A stretch of 64,000 bases of DNA from Candidatus Nitronauta litoralis (GTDB lineage: Bacteria > Nitrospinota > Nitrospinia > Nitrospinales > Nitrospinaceae), in the NCBI GenBank assembly GCA_015698285.1, contig CP048685.1, positions 558,001 through 622,000 on the forward strand, written 5' to 3'. A program made the position numbers and the translations under genes. Positions 44,453 to 53,780 of this stretch are shown one piece after another; the first letter of the stretch is position 1; the number at the start of each line of letters is the position of its first letter. The notes below the pieces were generated by a model. That model was not told where the DNA came from. It saw only the letters and a program-made list of their open reading frames with translations, and did not search any database.

Positions 44453-45730
44453 CTAGGGTAAAAAAACAGATGCCCGTGAGCTATACCATCTATAAGCCTC
44501 TTCCACCATGGGGGTGTGCAGGTTAGGGGTATCGTACCGACCTTCCTTGTCATAAGGCATGTAACCCATTTCCTGGGTGCGGTAAATTTCGTTTATGTAC
44601 CCATAAAAATCGGTGTACATAGGCAGTTTCAATTTCAGACGCGGCATCGCTTTTTCGCGAAAAGCTAAAAGTTCCCGGCCAAATGGATGAATTTTGACCA
44701 GACCTTCATCTCCATGTTTCATCCCTGCCATGTGTACCAACGATTCGTAATCTTCCCAATCCTCAAGTGCATCGACATCCGCAACGAACGCCGGGTCGTT
44801 GTGAAACTTTGATGTGGCCTGGGTATTGAGCAACGTTGACATGCCTCGGTTAAAATTTTTGAGATGCATGCCAAACTTGAAATCGTCTTCCTGCCTGAAC
44901 TTTTTAAGATCCTTGTCAAACTTTCGAAAATGCATTGCTACAACCGGTAGCATCTTGAGCATCCGTTTCGGTTCGCGCAGAGCTTTACTCAAAAACGCGT
45001 TCAAAATTTTTCCATCCTTTCGCGTTTCGTGTAGCAGCTCTATGATGTCCCCTTCGATCGCAGTCAGGTTGATTGGGTAAACATTGGGTTCCTTAACATC
45101 GTGCAGGCGATTTTCCTTTTCCTCTATACAGCGGTAATGATAATTGCGCTGGACAAATTCCGACTCCGGGTGGCGCAGGTAATCTCCAAACATCGCTTCT
45201 CGTGAATTGAGCCACATGATGAGGTTGTTGGAACGGACGTCCTTGTCTTTTACAACCTTTTCCAGCTCATAGAGAAATGGCAGGTCTCCCGGCTGGAATA
45301 ATACCAGTTCGTTTTTCTCTAACGTCAGGGCATCTCGACCACGAAGCAGGGTACTGATCAGCATCAGGTTGTCCGGATCTTCGGGGACGTAATGAATCGT
45401 CTTGCCGCGACAGTCAATTGTTTCCTTGAACAGATCCAGCACCGCTTTGACTTCCGGCGAACCCACCACCGCTATTTCCCGTACGCTAGACAGGAGCACA
45501 TTGCCCAGGGCGTAGCACATCAACGGAATACCATTTATCAAAAAAAGAAATTTGAGACGATCAATCCTGTCATCCTCCGCCCTGAGGATCAGGTGACTTA
45601 TACCGCGCTTGCCTTGAGCAATTTCCCGCCGTGCCTTGCCAAGGCCAATTCGGTCGGCTTCCCGCCTGGATTCATACCGGTTGTGGCTGAAACTTAGAAT
45701 GCATTTTTCGATTGTGGGGCGATTGCGCAC
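44453..45730 (-). CDS. Nucleotidyltransferase-like protein, unknown substrate
   Basis: A GTG start at 45730 is supported by GAGAAGG nine bases upstream; the open frame begins with TTG at 45748. The 425-residue protein has a Rossmann-like region (I-N-G-I-P-L-M-C-Y-A-L and I-A-V-V-G-S-P-E-V) and Y-V-P-E-D-P-D-N-L. This resembles the MobA-like NTP transferase fold, though the classical G-G-x-G-T/S-R motif is missing. The C-terminal half is helical with many aromatic residues. The gene is divergent from the proteasome operon across a 266-base region, so a shared regulatory region is likely, but a functional link is unproven. Confidence 0.65.
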   Translation of the reverse strand: MRNRPTIEKCILSFSHNRYESRREADRIGLGKARREIAQGKRGISHLILRAEDDRIDRLKFLFLINGIPLMCYALGNVLLSSVREIAVVGSPEVKAVLDLFKETIDCRGKTIHYVPEDPDNLMLISTLLRGRDALTLEKNELVLFQPGDLPFLYELEKVVKDKDVRSNNLIMWLNSREAMFGDYLRHPESEFVQRNYHYRCIEEKENRLHDVKEPNVYPINLTAIEGDIIELLHETRKDGKILNAFLSKALREPKRMLKMLPVVAMHFRKFDKDLKKFRQEDDFKFGMHLKNFNRGMSTLLNTQATSKFHNDPAFVADVDALEDWEDYESLVHMAGMKHGDEGLVKIHPFGRELLAFREKAMPRLKLKLPMYTDFYGYINEIYRTQEMGYMPYDKEGRYDTPNLHTPMVEEAYRWYSSRASVFLP

Positions 45731-45894
45731 GGAAATGGACCTTCTCAATGAAATTCTTACGAGATTTTGTATAATTTCCTGGAAACGTATAGAATATTAT
45801 AGACTTATCGTCGTAAAGGGCAAGACTTGCCGTGCGCTTGCACTGGTAAAAAAACCATCGTTTTAACCACTGTCACCCGAATGCGCGAAAAGGG

Positions 45895-45996: not shown

Positions 45997-47625
45997 ATGG
46001 GAGACCCCAGCCACATAACAGAACTGATTGATCAGATTCTGGAAGAAACCACGGATCAACCGGAACTGCAGCAAAAGGTTTTTGACTTACGCGATGCCTT
46101 GTTGCAAGCCCAGCAGACAGCCCAGCAATATGCGCTGAAGATTCGAACACTGGAAGAAACCATCCAGAAACTCAAACAACCCGCACATCGTATCGGCACG
46201 ATCATTGGAGAAGGTCTCGACGATTTATATCGTCTCAATGTAGGCGGCACTGAATACCAGGCGGCAGCATCCCCGGAAATTCTGGAAGAAGGCCCTCTTA
46301 AAGTAGGGGATATTGTTGCAGTCAATGAAGCATTTGTCGCCATCCAGAAACTGCCGAAGCCGGAGATGGGACCCGTCGGGCGTATCGCATCGCGATTAGC
46401 CGATGGCCAATGGATGATCGCAGGTGGCACCGGCAACGCCGAGAGCATGGTCAAGCCAGCTGACGATTTTGATACGGAAGGCTTGCGCGAAGGCGATGAA
46501 GTTATCCTCGATCCCACGCAAAAAGTGATGGTCGCCCGACTTCCAAAACGCAAATCCAAAAACGCGATCGATGACGATTTCGTCCCCGTTACCTGGAGCC
46601 AGGTTGGCGGACAGGAGCACGTTGTTGAAGAAGTCCGCAAAGTCATCGAATACCCCATCCTCCACTCAGAAATTTTAAAGAAGATGGAATACAAAATGCC
46701 AAAGGGTTTCCTTTTTTATGGCCCTCCCGGCTGCGGCAAAACCCTCATCGGCAAAGCCATCCTTTCAGACATCATCGAAAAACTGAAAGGTGAAATGGGT
46801 GAGGAAGAAAACGGCAGAGAACTCGAAGGCCGATTCATCCACGTGAAAGGTCCGGAAATTCTCAACATGTGGCTCGGAGAATCCGAACGCAAGGTACGGG
46901 AGGTCTTCCAGAAAGCTCGGGACTATAAAGAAAAAGGACAGTTCCCCTTCATTTTTATCGACGAAGCCGAATCGGTACTCGGCACCCGGCAGGCCTGGCG
47001 CGGACACAATATTTCAAACACGCTGGTGCCGATGTTCTGCGCAGAAATGGACGGCATTCAATCCGTGCGCGACATGGTCGTGATTCTCGCCACCAACCGG
47101 CCTGACCTCATCGACCCCGCCATTTTGCGACCGGGCCGTATTGATAAAAAAATAAAAGTCAGTCGTCCCAATCGCGATGACTGTGAAGCAATCCTGAAAG
47201 TTTATCTGAAACCAAACCTTCCACTGGAAGACAGCCTCGAAAACGTTACAGGACCGTTCCTCGATAAGCTGTTCGCCCGTAAATCAGAACAGGTTGCCCT
47301 GGTCCTGACGCTTCGAAGCGGTGATTTCAAAAAGCTCTATTGGAAAGACTTTATTTCCGGTGCCATCCTTGAGGGCATAGTCAGCCGCGCCAAGGAAACC
47401 GCTATCGAACGTGCGATCAAGGGAGAAGACCTGAAAATCAAAGTCGATGACCTGACAGATGCCCTCCGGGTCGAATTCAAGGACAACAGTGTCCTGCCGG
47501 CCGACTCCAACATGGAGGACTGGCTCCAATTACTCGACTTCGATCCGAAACATGTGGCCCGCGTTCGGCGACCGGATGACTCTGATCAAGCCACACACAA
47601 GACCATGCGTCGTTCCATTATATGA
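45997..47625 (+). CDS. arc: Proteasome-associated AAA+ ATPase (ARC/Mpa)
   Basis: The 542-residue protein has an N-terminal coiled coil (about residues 20-60), which in mycobacteria binds the modifier, then OB-fold segments. An AAA+ domain follows with Walker A G-P-P-G-C-G-K-T at 242-249 and Walker B F-I-F-I-D-E-A-E near 317. Arginine-finger motifs such as A-T-N-R-P-D and L-R-P-G-R follow. It unfolds tagged proteins and feeds them to the 20S core. The C terminus ends R-R-S-I-I and lacks the Q-Y-L or hydrophobic-tyrosine-x tail that docks Mpa to the core. Its stop overlaps the start of Dop (ATGA). Confidence 0.93.
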   Translation: MGDPSHITELIDQILEETTDQPELQQKVFDLRDALLQAQQTAQQYALKIRTLEETIQKLKQPAHRIGTIIGEGLDDLYRLNVGGTEYQAAASPEILEEGPLKVGDIVAVNEAFVAIQKLPKPEMGPVGRIASRLADGQWMIAGGTGNAESMVKPADDFDTEGLREGDEVILDPTQKVMVARLPKRKSKNAIDDDFVPVTWSQVGGQEHVVEEVRKVIEYPILHSEILKKMEYKMPKGFLFYGPPGCGKTLIGKAILSDIIEKLKGEMGEEENGRELEGRFIHVKGPEILNMWLGESERKVREVFQKARDYKEKGQFPFIFIDEAESVLGTRQAWRGHNISNTLVPMFCAEMDGIQSVRDMVVILATNRPDLIDPAILRPGRIDKKIKVSRPNRDDCEAILKVYLKPNLPLEDSLENVTGPFLDKLFARKSEQVALVLTLRSGDFKKLYWKDFISGAILEGIVSRAKETAIERAIKGEDLKIKVDDLTDALRVEFKDNSVLPADSNMEDWLQLLDFDPKHVARVRRPDDSDQATHKTMRRSII

Positions 47626-49115
47626 GTCAGCAAGTTCCACTGCTTGGTATTGAAACCGAGTACGGCATTATCCGCGAGGACCTCGAGACTTCTGATCCTG
47701 TTGAAGAATCGATGGAGTTGCTGCGAGTCTGCAAGCAACCGGGAGTTTTCCAAAAGTGGGATTACCGCAAAGAGCGAACGCACCTCGACATGCGTGGCTT
47801 CACGGTGGACCGTCTCGCGCAGGATGAAGAAGAGGATGAGTTCTGCGAGGAAGACCGCAAGCGTCCCTACACCTACCTCGATATGAAAAGCGACCGGGTC
47901 CTGACTAACGGTGCCCGCTTCTACAACGACCACACGCACCCTGAATACGGAACACCCGAATGTGCCAGCCTGTTTGATCTTGTAGCTCACGATATGGCTG
48001 GCGAAGACATTGTCCGAGATTGTGTCCGGTTGAGAAACGAAGAAATTGGAACTGACGGTTTACAGGTGTTCAAAAACAATACCGACTACAGTGGGCACAG
48101 TTACGGCACCCACGACAATTACCTCATCCAACGTTCGCTTCCATTTGAAACCTGGGCCAATGCTCTGCTGGCTTTTCTTGTGACTCGCCAGCTTTACGCA
48201 GGGGCCGGCAAGATTGGAGCTGAAGGGGCTCATGCTGACGGGTTCACTGGATTGCAGCTTGCTCAACGTTCCGATTTCATGGAAGCGATCATGAACATTG
48301 AAACGATGACCAAACGGCCTATCATCAACACACGCGACGAGCCTCATGCAAACTCCTCTCTCTACCGCAGGCTTCATCTTATACTGGGAGATGCCAACAT
48401 GTCTTCCTATGCAACCGCGCTTAAAGTAGGCTCTACCCGCCAGGTGCTCCGCCTGATCGGGGAAGAAAAATTGAAAGATTTTCCGGAACTTAAAAACCCG
48501 GTAAACGACTGCCGAACAGTTTCTCGGGATCTTTCGGGGAAAGTGCTGCTCAATAGAAAACAATCCGGCACAATTACACCAATCGAAATCCAGCGAGCTT
48601 ATCTTGAACAGGTTGCAGAACACCCACCCGGAGAGGATGAAAACGAACACGTTGAATACGAATGGGTCGTACGCGAATGGACGCGTACTTTAGATGATCT
48701 TGAAAAAGACCCGGACCAGTTGGACGACCGAATAGACTGGGCCATTAAGCGCAGCCTGTTCCGTGACTTCATGGCGTCCGAAAATATAAGCTGGGATGAT
48801 CCCGTAATGCAAAGCCTGGACCTGGAATACCACAACCTGGACCCGGAACGTGGCCTGTATACTGCGTTGCAAACGCAGGAAGGAATAACAAATCTGATTC
48901 CCCGGGATCGGGTGGAAAGCGCCATCAATTGCCCGCCGGAGGATACCCGTGCCGCAATCCGCGGACAAATGGTACAATTATATAAAGATAGAATACGTAA
49001 AGTTCACTGGACCGGCATAGAATTAATCGATGGAGAAGTGCTGGACTTGACGGACATCATCACGCAAAATGACGTGGAACTTGAACTGCAATCACGCAAG
49101 GAGCAGTTAGCATGA
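47622..49115 (+). CDS. dop: Deamidase/depupylase Dop
   Basis: The 497-residue protein belongs to the carboxylate-amine ligase-like family with G-I-E-T-E-Y-G at residues 9-15. The Dop-type features are W-D-Y-R-K-E-R, R-G-F-T-V-D, N-G-A-R-F-Y-N-D-H-T-H-P-E-Y and Y-G-T-H-D-N-Y-L. Dop converts the C-terminal glutamine of the modifier to glutamate and also removes the modifier from substrates. The modifier gene that follows (49112) ends in glutamine, so the deamidation step is needed. The assignment relative to PafA rests on these motifs and is fairly secure. Confidence 0.88.
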   Translation: MSQQVPLLGIETEYGIIREDLETSDPVEESMELLRVCKQPGVFQKWDYRKERTHLDMRGFTVDRLAQDEEEDEFCEEDRKRPYTYLDMKSDRVLTNGARFYNDHTHPEYGTPECASLFDLVAHDMAGEDIVRDCVRLRNEEIGTDGLQVFKNNTDYSGHSYGTHDNYLIQRSLPFETWANALLAFLVTRQLYAGAGKIGAEGAHADGFTGLQLAQRSDFMEAIMNIETMTKRPIINTRDEPHANSSLYRRLHLILGDANMSSYATALKVGSTRQVLRLIGEEKLKDFPELKNPVNDCRTVSRDLSGKVLLNRKQSGTITPIEIQRAYLEQVAEHPPGEDENEHVEYEWVVREWTRTLDDLEKDPDQLDDRIDWAIKRSLFRDFMASENISWDDPVMQSLDLEYHNLDPERGLYTALQTQEGITNLIPRDRVESAINCPPEDTRAAIRGQMVQLYKDRIRKVHWTGIELIDGEVLDLTDIITQNDVELELQSRKEQLA

Positions 49116-49303
49116 CGATTCAATCAATTGAAATGAGCGATCCGCTTCGCCGTGAGGAGAAAAAGGATCCTTCACCAGATCATAAGGATGCCGGACCCAG
49201 TCGTCCGGATGTATCCCGCCCGGGTCGGGATGATCTCCTCAAACGAATGAAGAAAGTCGACCCAAAGCAATCTGAAAAATACAAGCAGCGCACGGGTCAA
49301 TGA
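49112..49303 (+). CDS. ubact: Prokaryotic ubiquitin-like modifier UBact
   Basis: The 63-residue protein is disordered-looking, rich in Asp, Lys, Arg and Pro, and ends Y-K-Q-R-T-G-Q. Classical Pup of actinobacteria ends G-G-Q or G-G-E; the R-(T/S)-G-(E/Q) ending is the signature described for UBact in Nitrospinae, Nitrospirae and other Gram-negative phyla. The protein is attached through its C-terminal residue to lysines of target proteins by PafA after Dop deamidates Gln63. It overlaps dop and prcB by four bases each (ATGA), so the operon is translationally coupled. Confidence 0.9.
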   Translation: MTIQSIEMSDPLRREEKKDPSPDHKDAGPSRPDVSRPGRDDLLKRMKKVDPKQSEKYKQRTGQ

Positions 49304-50097
49304 ACCTATTGAACCCGGAAAATCAGCAGCAGGGTGATTTCATAGATCTTCTCAATCGTTCAGGCTATGCCTGGCCGGATGCCACTGGAATGCCGGCAAT
49401 CGACAAGGCCAGTCTGACCCAGGGCACCACTGTACTCGCCTTCCACTATAAAGATGGCGTTCTGGTTGCAGGTGACCGACGGGCCACAGCAGGCAACGCG
49501 ATCATGTACGAACGCTGCGACAAGGTCATCCCTATCGATGATTATTCGCTCATGGCAATCGCTGGGGTACCGGCTACCGCCTTTGAAATGGCGCGCGTGC
49601 TGTCGCACAACTTTGAATATTACCGACGTTCCCAGTTACAATCGCTTTCCACAGAAGGTAAAGTCCGTGCTTTGTCGCGTCTTCTTAAGGACAACATGGG
49701 GTTGGCCATGCAGGGTGTTGGCGCGGTGAGCCCCATTTTTGCCACTTACAATTTAAAAAGTGATGCCCCGATGATTTATTTTTACGATCTGCTTGGGGCA
49801 CAGTTTGAAATTCGGACTCACACAGCTACAGGGTCTGGTTCACCTGTTATACGCGGCGTTTTGGAGCACGAAGATCTTTGGGGTCAGAATCCTCTGAACC
49901 AGCGTTCCCAGGAAGAAGCATCGCTATTGGCAATCCGCCTGTTGCAAACAGCAGGGCGATTTGATTCCGCAACCGGGCAAGCCCGGCCGGACGACAACAT
50001 TTTCCCCATCATCGCCTGTATTACGGCCAAGGGTTATCGCTTCCTTCCCGAAGAAGAAGTGGCGTCGCTTTTCCAACAGGCTATTCAGCGCACTTAA
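49300..50097 (+). CDS. prcB: 20S proteasome beta subunit
   Basis: The 265-residue protein has a 42-residue propeptide ending S-L-T-Q-G, and cleavage exposes Thr43 as the N-terminal nucleophile. The other catalytic residues sit at the expected spacing: Asp59 in G-D-R-R-A-T corresponds to Asp17, and Lys75 in C-D-K-V-I-P corresponds to Lys33. The later S-G-S motif (T-G-S-G-S-P) and D-D-N also fit. It forms the proteolytic rings of the core. It overlaps the UBact gene by four bases. Confidence 0.95.
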   Translation: MNLLNPENQQQGDFIDLLNRSGYAWPDATGMPAIDKASLTQGTTVLAFHYKDGVLVAGDRRATAGNAIMYERCDKVIPIDDYSLMAIAGVPATAFEMARVLSHNFEYYRRSQLQSLSTEGKVRALSRLLKDNMGLAMQGVGAVSPIFATYNLKSDAPMIYFYDLLGAQFEIRTHTATGSGSPVIRGVLEHEDLWGQNPLNQRSQEEASLLAIRLLQTAGRFDSATGQARPDDNIFPIIACITAKGYRFLPEEEVASLFQQAIQRT

Positions 50098-50111
50098 ATC
50101 AAGAGACAATT

Positions 50112-50855
50112 ATGTTTGAAGAACCATTTCGCTGGCTGGAGGCCATTTCAACCAGACACAGTTACGTCCAGGAAAAGCTGAAAAAGGGACAGCCGGTCAT
50201 TGCGGTGCCTTATCAGTACGGCACCCTTATGCTGGGCTTTTCGCCGCAACCTGGAAAGATTTTTGAACTCTATGACCGCATCGCCCTCGGGGGATTGGGA
50301 CATCCCGCAGATGTCGAACGGCTGCGCATGACCCTGCTCGATATGGCTCACCTGGAAGGTTTCAACCGATCAGAAAAAGATGTGACGATCGCCCGGCTTC
50401 TCCAATTCGGTATTGCCCCGTCACTCAAACAGAATTTTGAAGAAGTCGTACGCGCTCCCTATCTGATTCAACTTCTTTTAATGGAAATTGATTTCAACAA
50501 CCAGGCCTCGTTCTTTCGAGTCAACTACGATGGACATTGGGAAACCTTTAAAAAAGGTGCCGTGATCGCGGGAGATACCCAGCTATCAGATGCCCTCGAA
50601 GAAAAAATAGAATCAACAGATTTTACCTCGCTTTCACTAGATGATGCACTTCTGAAAGCCTGTCGCATCTGGGAGGAAGCCAAGAAGGATATTGCCGATG
50701 AGGAGTCGGACGATCCAGCCCTGACTTTAAAGGAAGCATTCGAAAAATGGACACTGGAGGCGGCCGTCCTATCTACTGATACTGAACGCCGGGCCCTCTA
50801 TCGTTCTCTTTCTCCTGATGAAATCGAAAAACTTAAAATGGCCTGCCTGTCATGA
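50112..50855 (+). CDS. prcA: 20S proteasome alpha subunit
   Basis: The 247-residue protein is the outer-ring subunit. It has the alpha-type strand Y-G-T-L-M-L-G-F-S and I-F-E-L-Y-D-R-I-A-L-G-G-L-G-H-P-A-D, which matches bacterial PrcA. It lacks catalytic threonine, as expected. Its C terminus overlaps the PafA start (ATGA at 50852). Together with PrcB it forms the 28-subunit core. Confidence 0.92.
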   Translation: MFEEPFRWLEAISTRHSYVQEKLKKGQPVIAVPYQYGTLMLGFSPQPGKIFELYDRIALGGLGHPADVERLRMTLLDMAHLEGFNRSEKDVTIARLLQFGIAPSLKQNFEEVVRAPYLIQLLLMEIDFNNQASFFRVNYDGHWETFKKGAVIAGDTQLSDALEEKIESTDFTSLSLDDALLKACRIWEEAKKDIADEESDDPALTLKEAFEKWTLEAAVLSTDTERRALYRSLSPDEIEKLKMACLS

Positions 50856-52309
50856 AAAAAAGAATTTACGGTATCGAAACAGAATACGGCCTTTTAATAA
50901 AAGGAGAGGACTTCAAGTACGGTTCTGTTGATGTGGCAGTGCGTGTCAAGAATCACATTTTTGAAAAAAAGACCGGTGTGCTGGACCTGCACTATCGCGC
51001 CAACGACGAACCCCCGGGAAATGGCGGGTTTCTGATAAACGGCGGTCGGGTCTATCTCGACATGGGCCACCTCGAATACGCGTCTCCGGAATGCTCCAAT
51101 CTAATGGATCTTGTCACCTATGATCGTGCCGGCGATATGGTGGTGCAGGACGCTGTCGAGGAAATGGGGTGGAGCGATCAGGTATCGATTATCAAAAATA
51201 ATGTCGACCTTGAAACCAATGCGACCTTCGGTTGCCACGAAAACTATCTGGTCAGCCGTGCATTCCAGTTCGATAACCGTGAAAATCTGCGTATGCTGGC
51301 TTCCTTTCTGGTCACACGGCAGATTTACGCCGGAGCCGGACGAACGGGCGCCTGCAACCCCCAACCCTTTCGCGACTGGGACGAGGTAAGCCCTCAACGC
51401 AAGGATCAGGAGGAAGTCGATTTCCAGATTTCCCAACGTGCCGACCATATTCCCAACGAGTTTTATCGGTGGGTCCAGTACAACCGCGCTATCGTCAATA
51501 CGCGTGATGAACCCCTTTCCGACCCAAGCAAGTACCGTCGAATTCACCTGCTGGTAGGTGACTCCAATATGAGTGAATTCGCCACCGCTCTTAAAATGGG
51601 ATCGACTGCTGTGTTGATGGAACTGATCGAAATGGGTGTCGCCAACCCGGACTGGATCCTGGCAGATTCTGTTTCAACTATGCGGGACATTTCGCGTGAC
51701 CCTGAATTTAAATGGGAAATCACACTTCGGGACGGCAAAAAATCGACTGCATTGGAATTGCAATGGGAAATGTTGAAATGCGCAAAGGAACATCTCACTG
51801 GTAGTTCTACCGATACAGATTGGGTGATCGAAGCCTGGGAGTCGGTGTTGGAAGACATCCCCAAAGGTCCGGAAGCTTTGCTGGGACGGGTCGACTGGGC
51901 CAGTAAATACTGGATGCTGACGGAATTCATGAAAGCGCAGGACCTTTCCTGGCAGGACCCCTGGGTCAAAAGTCTGGACCTGGAATACCACAACCTGAAC
52001 CGTCAAAAAGGTTTATACTGGGGATTAGAGGAAACAGGCGATGCTTGGCGAAGGACCACGGACTCTGCGGTCGAACATGCCAAGAGCACAGCACCTAAAG
52101 GCACCCGGGCCGATGGTCGTGGCGAACTGGTCAAAACACTTGCACAGAGCCAGACGGGCTACTTGATAGACTGGATTGGTTTCCGGCTTAACAAAGAGGA
52201 ACCTTTTTTGATGCTTGACCCGTTCATTTCCTATAAGAAGGAAATTCGCAATTACCTGAACAACCTCGACCTGCAACAACCTTATGACCGCGACTCCTTC
52301 TTCCGTTAA
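50852..52309 (+). CDS. pafA: Modifier ligase PafA
   Basis: The 485-residue protein shares the G-I-E-T-E-Y-G motif (residues 7-13) with Dop but has the PafA-type elements N-G-G-R-V-Y-L-D-M-G-H-L-E-Y, F-G-C-H-E-N-Y-L, N-T-R-D-E-P and V-G-D-S-N-M-S-E. PafA uses ATP to activate the modifier's C-terminal glutamate and join it to substrate lysines. It is the last gene of the proteasome operon. Dop and PafA are paralogues; the split here follows known motif differences. Confidence 0.88.
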   Translation: MKKRIYGIETEYGLLIKGEDFKYGSVDVAVRVKNHIFEKKTGVLDLHYRANDEPPGNGGFLINGGRVYLDMGHLEYASPECSNLMDLVTYDRAGDMVVQDAVEEMGWSDQVSIIKNNVDLETNATFGCHENYLVSRAFQFDNRENLRMLASFLVTRQIYAGAGRTGACNPQPFRDWDEVSPQRKDQEEVDFQISQRADHIPNEFYRWVQYNRAIVNTRDEPLSDPSKYRRIHLLVGDSNMSEFATALKMGSTAVLMELIEMGVANPDWILADSVSTMRDISRDPEFKWEITLRDGKKSTALELQWEMLKCAKEHLTGSSTDTDWVIEAWESVLEDIPKGPEALLGRVDWASKYWMLTEFMKAQDLSWQDPWVKSLDLEYHNLNRQKGLYWGLEETGDAWRRTTDSAVEHAKSTAPKGTRADGRGELVKTLAQSQTGYLIDWIGFRLNKEEPFLMLDPFISYKKEIRNYLNNLDLQQPYDRDSFFR

Positions 52310-52412: not shown

Positions 52413-52757
52413 ATGACAGACTGCATTTTCTGCAAAATTGATAAGGGTGAAATTCCCTCGAAAAAAGTTTTTGAGGACGAGGGTTTATTCGTCATCAAGG
52501 ATGTTAATCCCCAGGCACCAACCCATCTGCTCATCATTCCTAAACGCCACATCCCCACTCTGTTGGATCTGGAAGAGCAGGACCGGGAAGTGATGAGTCA
52601 GGTGCCCGAGTTGGCAGGAAAGCTTGCACGGGAAAACGGTTTTGATAAATCCGGATTTCGTTTGGTAGTCAATTGCGGGGCAGGAGCAGGGCAATCGGTG
52701 TTCCATATTCATTTTCATTTACTGGCGGGGCGGGCTATGCAATGGCCTCCCGGATGA
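52413..52757 (+). CDS. HIT-family (HINT-type) nucleotide-binding protein
   Basis: The 114-residue protein starts C-I-F-C-K-I and has the HIT motif H-I-H-F-H-L-L (His98, His100, His102), where His100 is the nucleophile. K-R-H-I-P-T and G-x-G-A-G-Q-S-V are family motifs. HINT enzymes hydrolyse aminoacyl- or phosphoramidate-linked AMP; the real substrate here is unknown. It is followed three bases later by nadA. Confidence 0.9.
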   Translation: MTDCIFCKIDKGEIPSKKVFEDEGLFVIKDVNPQAPTHLLIIPKRHIPTLLDLEEQDREVMSQVPELAGKLARENGFDKSGFRLVVNCGAGAGQSVFHIHFHLLAGRAMQWPPG

Positions 52758-52760
52758 GTC

Positions 52761-53780
52761 ATGACAGTCACGGCAGAATCCCTCTACGAAAAGCTGCGGC
52801 ATTACCGCGTCGGCAGTCCCCTTTGTGAATTTACCGTGGAGCATTGCGCCCGCATGCTCCCCTACATCGAAAAAATAGAACGCCTCAAGCAGGAAAAGAA
52901 CGCGATTATTCTGGCACACAATTATGTCGCGCCGGAAGTCTTGTTCAGTGTTGCCGATTACACGGGTGATTCCTACGGCCTTTCCAAAAAGGCGCGGGGA
53001 TCAGATGCGGATATGATCGTGTTCGTTGCGGTCCGCTTCATGGCGGAAACAGCAAAAGTTCTGAACCCTGATAAGACGGTGCTGGATCCAAACCCCAATG
53101 GGGGCTGTTCCCTTGCCGACAGCGTCAATGCAGGTATCGTGAAGCAATTGCGACGTGAATTTCCTGACCATACATTTGTTTGCTACATCAACACAACGGC
53201 AGAAGTCAAAGCAGAATGTGACGTGTGCGTCACCTCGTCCAATGTCTATAAAATTGTCGAAGCGATAGAGAACGATAAAATATATTTCCTCCCGGACAAA
53301 TTGATGGCGCAGAATGTCATCGAATATTTAAAAGAAAAAGGATCGTCCAAGCAGGTCGATTTTTATGACGGCACCTGTTATGTCCATGAGGAGTATGAAC
53401 CAGGGTCCATTGATTTTATCCGGCAGAACAATGAGGGAGTCGAAATCCTGGTCCATCCTGAATGCACACCGCCTGTTGTGGGAAAAGCAGATTATGTCGG
53501 CAGCACAACAGGCATGATGGAGCATGTCCGGCAGTCGGAAAAGGACTCATTTTTCCTATTGACTGAGTGTGGACTCACAGGAATCCTGCAAACGGAGTTT
53601 CCTGAAAAACAATTTGTCGGTACCTGCACAATGTGCCGATACATGAAATCGAATTGTCTGACTCACATTGCCAGCACTCTTGAGAATCCGCTGCCCGAAA
53701 GCATCATTCATATAGAAGCTCCAGTACAGAAACGTGCTCTCGCCTGCGTGGAGCGTATGTTTCATTATGCTGGCAACTGA
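52761..53780 (+). CDS. nadA: Quinolinate synthase A
   Basis: The 339-residue protein has the NadA signatures A-I-I-L-A-H-N-Y, D-S-Y-G-L-S-K-K-A, N-P-N-G-G-C-S-L-A-D and V-H-P-E-C, plus cysteines that bind the [4Fe-4S] cluster (including C-T-M-C-R-Y-M). NadA condenses dihydroxyacetone phosphate with iminoaspartate in NAD synthesis. NadB and NadC are not adjacent. The short distance to the HIT gene suggests one transcript. Confidence 0.93.
   Translation: MTVTAESLYEKLRHYRVGSPLCEFTVEHCARMLPYIEKIERLKQEKNAIILAHNYVAPEVLFSVADYTGDSYGLSKKARGSDADMIVFVAVRFMAETAKVLNPDKTVLDPNPNGGCSLADSVNAGIVKQLRREFPDHTFVCYINTTAEVKAECDVCVTSSNVYKIVEAIENDKIYFLPDKLMAQNVIEYLKEKGSSKQVDFYDGTCYVHEEYEPGSIDFIRQNNEGVEILVHPECTPPVVGKADYVGSTTGMMEHVRQSEKDSFFLLTECGLTGILQTEFPEKQFVGTCTMCRYMKSNCLTHIASTLENPLPESIIHIEAPVQKRALACVERMFHYAGN

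Follow-up and report, generated by a model that had tools for sequence, protein, structure and literature searches.

Conjugation-proteasome systems built around the modifier UBact were reportedly described in Gram-negative bacteria by Lehmann et al. in 2017, in Biochem Biophys Res Commun 483:946. The locus analysed here shows no categorical difference from that system, sharing its modifier family, its R[TS]G[QE] tail, its ARC-Dop-UBact-PrcB-PrcA-PafA gene set and its occurrence in Nitrospinota and other Gram-negative phyla; what it adds is an example from the closed genome of an organism in culture. The Pup-proteasome of Mycobacterium tuberculosis (Pup, Dop, PafA, Mpa and PrcBA) has the same enzyme families and catalytic residues, a beta-grasp ATPase and alpha-subunit Lys52 and Asp144, for which the locus has equivalents. 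In the locus, however, UBact replaces Pup, Thr-Gly-Gln replaces Gly-Gly-Gln and an Ile-Ile tail replaces GQYL, and Arg26 and Glu119 of PrcA are not kept. Proteasome and Dop/PafA genes of the same lineage, in Nitrospirae and Nitrospinae, were recorded in earlier surveys (De Mot 2007, cited in PMC5666114; PMC7947786), the accessible parts of which do not treat ARC tails or alpha-subunit pockets.

The organism, ‘Ca. Nitronauta litoralis’ EB, is a marine nitrite oxidizer that grows together with an alphaproteobacterium in a binary co-culture, and its genome is a single chromosome of 3,921,641 bp (PMC8026999). The window analysed is a 64,000-nucleotide stretch of this chromosome, to which all unprefixed coordinates refer. 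The word “proteasome” is absent from the papers searched on this genome and on the phylum. Knowledge of UBact systems from sequence dates back to 2017, and the literature searched gave only passing mentions and citations, with no experimental conjugation, proteolysis or complex for any of them. An earlier reading of the window, made from the sequence only, had called the targets and physiology of UBact largely unstudied.

Gene content of the operon

That sequence-only reading had recognised a complete proteasome operon of the UBact type in what was probably a Nitrospinota genome, with six genes in the order ARC, Dop, UBact, PrcB, PrcA and PafA at 45997-52309 that overlap by four bases at all but one of the five junctions. 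The open reading frames match these coordinates, and the identification was right on all points tested. The features of the locus are:

45997..47625, + strand: ARC, Mpa-like proteasomal AAA+ ATPase, 542 aa (TIGR03689 369.9 bits, E 2e-110)
47617..47622, + strand: final two ARC codons, encoding the C-terminal Ile-Ile that is proposed as a docking tail without Tyr
47622..49115, + strand: Dop, deamidase/depupylase homologue, 497 aa (PF03136 499.6 bits)
49112..49303, + strand: UBact modifier, 63 aa (NF033388 75.3 bits, PF20513 74 bits)
49300..50097, + strand: PrcB, 20S beta subunit, 265 aa (PF00227 102.9 bits, TIGR03690 163.7 bits)
50112..50855, + strand: PrcA, 20S alpha subunit, 247 aa (TIGR03691 54.6 bits and AlphaFold2 model)
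50852..52309, + strand: PafA, ligase homologue, 485 aa (PF03136 438.3 bits)
52413-52757, + strand: HIT protein (Pfam), downstream neighbour
52761-53780, + strand: NadA (Pfam), downstream neighbour

By their ORF coordinates, ARC/Dop, Dop/UBact, UBact/PrcB and PrcA/PafA each overlap by 4 bp (ATGA), and the sole non-overlapping junction, PrcB/PrcA, is a gap of 14 bp. Reading frames, profiles and the PrcA model place the full gene set of a UBact system (Dop and PafA homologues, 20S alpha and beta subunits and ARC) within the operon. The family matches of ARC, Dop, PafA, PrcB and PrcA range from strong to weak, and all five lie below the NCBI equivalog cut-offs (504.75 for Mpa/ARC TIGR03689, 191.9 for PrcB TIGR03690 and 139 for PrcA TIGR03691), a shortfall that would make sense if the cut-offs had been set with Pup systems in mind. 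Though its sequence match is weak, PrcA is a 20S alpha fold according to its AlphaFold2 model (pLDDT 87.9; target-normalised TM ∼0.84 against M. tuberculosis PrcA). ARC aligns with M. tuberculosis Mpa over residues 26-516, spanning the coiled coil, AAA domain and beta-grasp and ending before the tail; it carries a Walker A motif GPPGCGKT (242-249), a Walker B region IDEAE (321-325) and a beta-grasp region at ∼425-450.

In the UBact and Pup HMM searches that the earlier reading had suggested as a check, the modifier scored above both family cut-offs (75.3 against 35 bits for NF033388 and 74 against 27.8 bits for PF20513), and the Pup profile (PF05639) had no match up to E 10 in the whole genome, with Corynebacterium glutamicum among the positive control genomes. 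Sequence searches found no solved structure resembling UBact and no UBact in viral contigs. The protein ends in KYKQRTGQ, with Gln63 as the last residue. An R-T-G-Q end had been read correctly from the sequence, but its contrast with G-G-Q as a peculiarity fails, RTGQ being the norm of a family in which every fetched UBact that reaches its stop ends in R[TS]G[QE]. Tails were RTGQ in 52 and RTGE in one of the 53 complete UBacts from Nitrospinota, RTGQ in one and RTGE in three from Nitrospira, RSGQ in eight and RSGE in seven from Armatimonadetes, and RTGQ in three and RTGE in two from Verrucomicrobia. The lysine-linked RTGE remnant suggested earlier for mass spectrometry needs correction: since trypsin cleaves after the Arg, the remnant should be TGE, that is Lys plus Thr-Gly-Glu, a shift of +287.112 Da computed from residue masses.

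The single RTGE tail among the 53 complete Nitrospinota UBacts belongs to a Nitrospinia MAG, OFTM166 (L101:10001-10177); with that ending, its UBact would need no deamidation by Dop. The N-terminal motif DPLRREEKK and a further segment, LKRMKxVDPKQ, are near-invariant in UBacts of the order. Relatives outside the genus start ∼5 residues later (MxM-DPLRREEK), and the first five residues of the window UBact may be either a genus-level extension or a matter of start-site choice. An apparent second UBact in another MAG (G041) was rejected: the two matches, one of them cut off, each lie at a contig end, and we take them as a single gene that assembly has split or duplicated.

The whole genome holds exactly two genes of the Pup_ligase fold, both inside the operon. 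Dop scored 407.6 bits with TIGR03688, above that model's score for PafA, and PafA scored 342.9 bits with TIGR03686, above that model's score for Dop. The Dop-loop, the mark that distinguishes Dop (PMC7947786), is present and aligned in the former and missing from the latter. Asp103 of Dop, equivalent to Asp94 of the A. cellulolyticus enzyme, is invariant in a 67-sequence alignment, and Asp70 of PafA aligns at a site where 4b0t has Asp and the 4bjr construct has Asn. Both proteins are conserved across the UBact clade in our alignments. Alignment with the Rhodococcus beta subunit gives PrcB a propeptide of 42 residues and makes Thr43, Asp59 and Lys75, which the sequence-only reading had rightly taken as intact, the mature T1, D17 and K33; all three are invariant in the 75 PrcB sequences aligned. 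All three enzymes, Dop, PafA and PrcB, have their catalytic residues intact. One other PrcB-like match in the genome is weak (E 5e-4) and is probably HslV.

Downstream, the genes for the HIT protein and NadA adjoin PafA in most members of the order and probably lie outside the proteasome machinery. No forward terminator-like site was found in the 103-bp gap between PafA and HIT; promoter and terminator scans gave signals no commoner than in shuffles and yielded no operon boundary. An Rfam scan of the whole 64-kb window gave no match. The gene upstream of and divergent from ARC (44453-45748, - strand) has a weak MobA-like NTP-transferase match and adjoins the operon across the order.

Distribution and gene order in relatives

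UBact was found in 58 of 77 Nitrospinota genomes, all of them among the 64 inside the order (0/13 outside), and the distribution of PrcB follows it. This occurrence, together with the same neighbouring genes in mostly the same order in the loci read, places the operon far beyond chance as judged by sequence comparison. UBact relatives occur in Nitrospina, other Nitrospinaceae, Nitrospira, Armatimonadetes, Verrucomicrobia, Latescibacterota and one MAG labelled Gemmatimonadetes; the MAGs OFTM7 and HKST-UBA01 are the two nearest relatives. Nitrospira, Latescibacterota and Armatimonadetes have the same gene content, and Verrucomicrobia have it in part. Because the complete set is usual in the order, the window locus is typical. 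Its earlier description as a good model locus stands only in part: the genome is closed and the organism can be grown, but only as a binary co-culture and with no genetics reported in the accessible part of the published account.

A set of Nitrospinota (L041, L044, L046, L062, L066 and others) has the alternative order ARC-Dop-PrcA-UBact-PrcB-PafA, in which UBact still adjoins PrcB, usually with an overlap. Among Nitrospinota loci the 4-bp overlap was present at UBact-PrcB in 52 of 53 and at ARC-Dop in 43 of 46, counts for which start codons were picked nearest the expected length, a choice that may favour 4-bp overlaps.

The Armatimonadetes MAG JAFAZD01 has UBact loci on two contigs (L111:9496-9633 and L114:251-385), so that either it holds two systems or its bin is mixed. 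In a MAG that bears the name Akkermansia muciniphila (L129:10001-10189) there is a UBact-PrcB locus whose UBact has exactly the tail seen in a Verrucomicrobiales MAG (L130); the former MAG is possibly mislabelled or a mixed bin. The UBact loci of a Latescibacterota MAG and of the MAG named Gemmatimonadetes (L117 and L119) are nearly identical, and one of the two names is probably wrong.

The window operon has a single PrcB. In six of nine genomes of one Nitrospinota sister genus, a second copy, PrcB2, ∼50% identical to PrcB, lies between Dop and PrcA (for example L088:8364-9104, L078:8357-9112 and L082:4677-5432). It keeps Thr1, Asp17 and Lys33 and differs at positions 20 (Ala to Ile), 21 (Thr to Met) and 45 (Ile to Val), which we take to lie near the 20S S1 pocket; because of these changes, its cleavage preference is likely to differ from that of PrcB. 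PrcB2 is broken or truncated in some MAGs (L068, L090), and its place in the tree is on a long branch with a support of 0.46.

Proposed mechanism and docking of ARC

The analysis shows the gene content and order, the catalytic residues, the modelled PrcA fold and the conservation, and we are highly confident that an intact conjugation-and-degradation operon of the UBact type lies here, for which we infer the reactions, the targets and the mode of docking. Dop would deamidate the C-terminal Gln63 of UBact to Glu, and PafA with ATP would phosphorylate the UBact gamma-carboxylate and then join UBact to a lysine of the target protein, a conjugation that Dop would be able to reverse. ARC would act as a hexamer whose coiled coil holds UBact; it would unfold the conjugate and thread it past the PrcA gate to the PrcB chamber, for cleavage by Thr1. 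ARC probably docks by its beta-grasp domain together with its C-terminal -Ile-Ile-COO(-) tail. The tail carboxylate would meet Lys49 of PrcA, and the penultimate aliphatic side chain would meet the hydrophobic environment of Leu118, replacing the mycobacterial Tyr contacts.

In M. tuberculosis, the GQYL tail of Mpa opens the 20S gate (PMC8142254), with Tyr608 of Mpa contacting PrcA Arg26 or Glu119 and, in one of two modes, the Leu609 carboxylate contacting PrcA Lys52 (PMC9599533). The window ARC ends in RRSII, and the GQYL (HbYX-like) tail is absent. Two aliphatic residues, [IVM][IVL], end all 60 UBact-clade ARCs compared (from Nitrospinota, Nitrospira, Armatimonadetes, Verrucomicrobia and Latescibacterota), and the residues before them vary between phyla. 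The lack of a Tyr in the tail seems to characterise the UBact clade as a whole. In two agreeing alignments, Lys25 of the window PrcA takes the site of M. tuberculosis Arg26, Leu118 that of Glu119, Lys49 that of Lys52 and Asp140 that of Asp144. Across 61 PrcA sequences, the Arg26 site holds Lys, Met, Leu, Gln, Asp and others and never Arg (0/61), and the Glu119 site holds Leu, Ile or Val in every case; the Lys52 and Asp144 sites are Lys and Asp, respectively, in 61/61. The Tyr-binding sites would appear to have been lost where the Tyr was lost, and the carboxylate and main-chain sites to have been kept.

We see an even chance that UBact proteasomes use a Tyr-less docking code, in which an aliphatic ARC tail is matched to a PrcA pocket that has no Tyr-binding residues and has the carboxylate Lys; the residue equivalences behind this are drawn at ∼25% identity for PrcA and from one structural reference, M. 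tuberculosis. To our knowledge, such a code would differ from that of the characterised ATPase-20S pairs, and no description of the tail-pocket pattern was found in the literature searched, which is partial. An aliphatic tail could work, since in archaeal 20S the hydrophobic HbYX residue drives gate opening: filling of the Hb pocket suffices, and the Tyr and the last residue support binding (PMC12352868).

Tail docking competes with a reading in which ARC engages the 20S mainly by its beta-grasp or an adaptor and the aliphatic tail is kept for hexamer packing or some other reason. The beta-grasp region is conserved in the window ARC, and in M. tuberculosis the contacts of the beta-grasp hairpin are essential, with GQYL docking weak and variable (PMC9599533). 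Yet the last two ARC residues are kept in every tail compared despite a linker that varies by phylum, and the carboxylate-binding Lys of PrcA is invariant where the Tyr-binding sites have changed. On balance a tail without a docking role is a possibility, though a rather doubtful one.

The alternatives to a conjugation-and-degradation operon find less room. A mainly regulatory, reversible tag with degradation as a side function would parallel Actinobacteria that have pupylation but no 20S; Dop and PafA are both intact, and Corynebacterium glutamicum, which is not known to have a 20S proteasome, shows the ligases in the control search. With PrcA and PrcB in the same operon and the near-universal four-base overlap of UBact with PrcB (52/53 loci), however, we consider this unlikely. 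The homology of the operon's enzymes to Pup-type enzymes, and the ancient transfer from Actinobacteria that has been proposed (PMC7947786, PMC5666114), might suggest a recently acquired actinobacterial Pup-proteasome operon. That origin is highly improbable for a locus whose modifier is UBact and not Pup, whose ARC has no GQYL tail, whose system is present order-wide and whose closest sequences come from Nitrospinota as well, with identities reaching 86-95% for the nearest MAG. It is just as improbable that the locus is a decaying remnant without function, for the only signs of decay are the broken PrcB2 copies of the sister genus, and within the window the six frames are open, the catalytic residues intact and the system conserved throughout the order.

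The window locus is a real, intact and ordinary UBact-type operon in a growable organism, UBact itself having been known since 2017. The closed genome and the growable organism make it possible to search by mass spectrometry for conjugates, whose mass shift is defined. The tail-pocket pattern offers a concrete and cheap test of gate opening without the HbYX tyrosine and, if the proposed docking code is true, the motors and cores of UBact and Pup systems would not be interchangeable.
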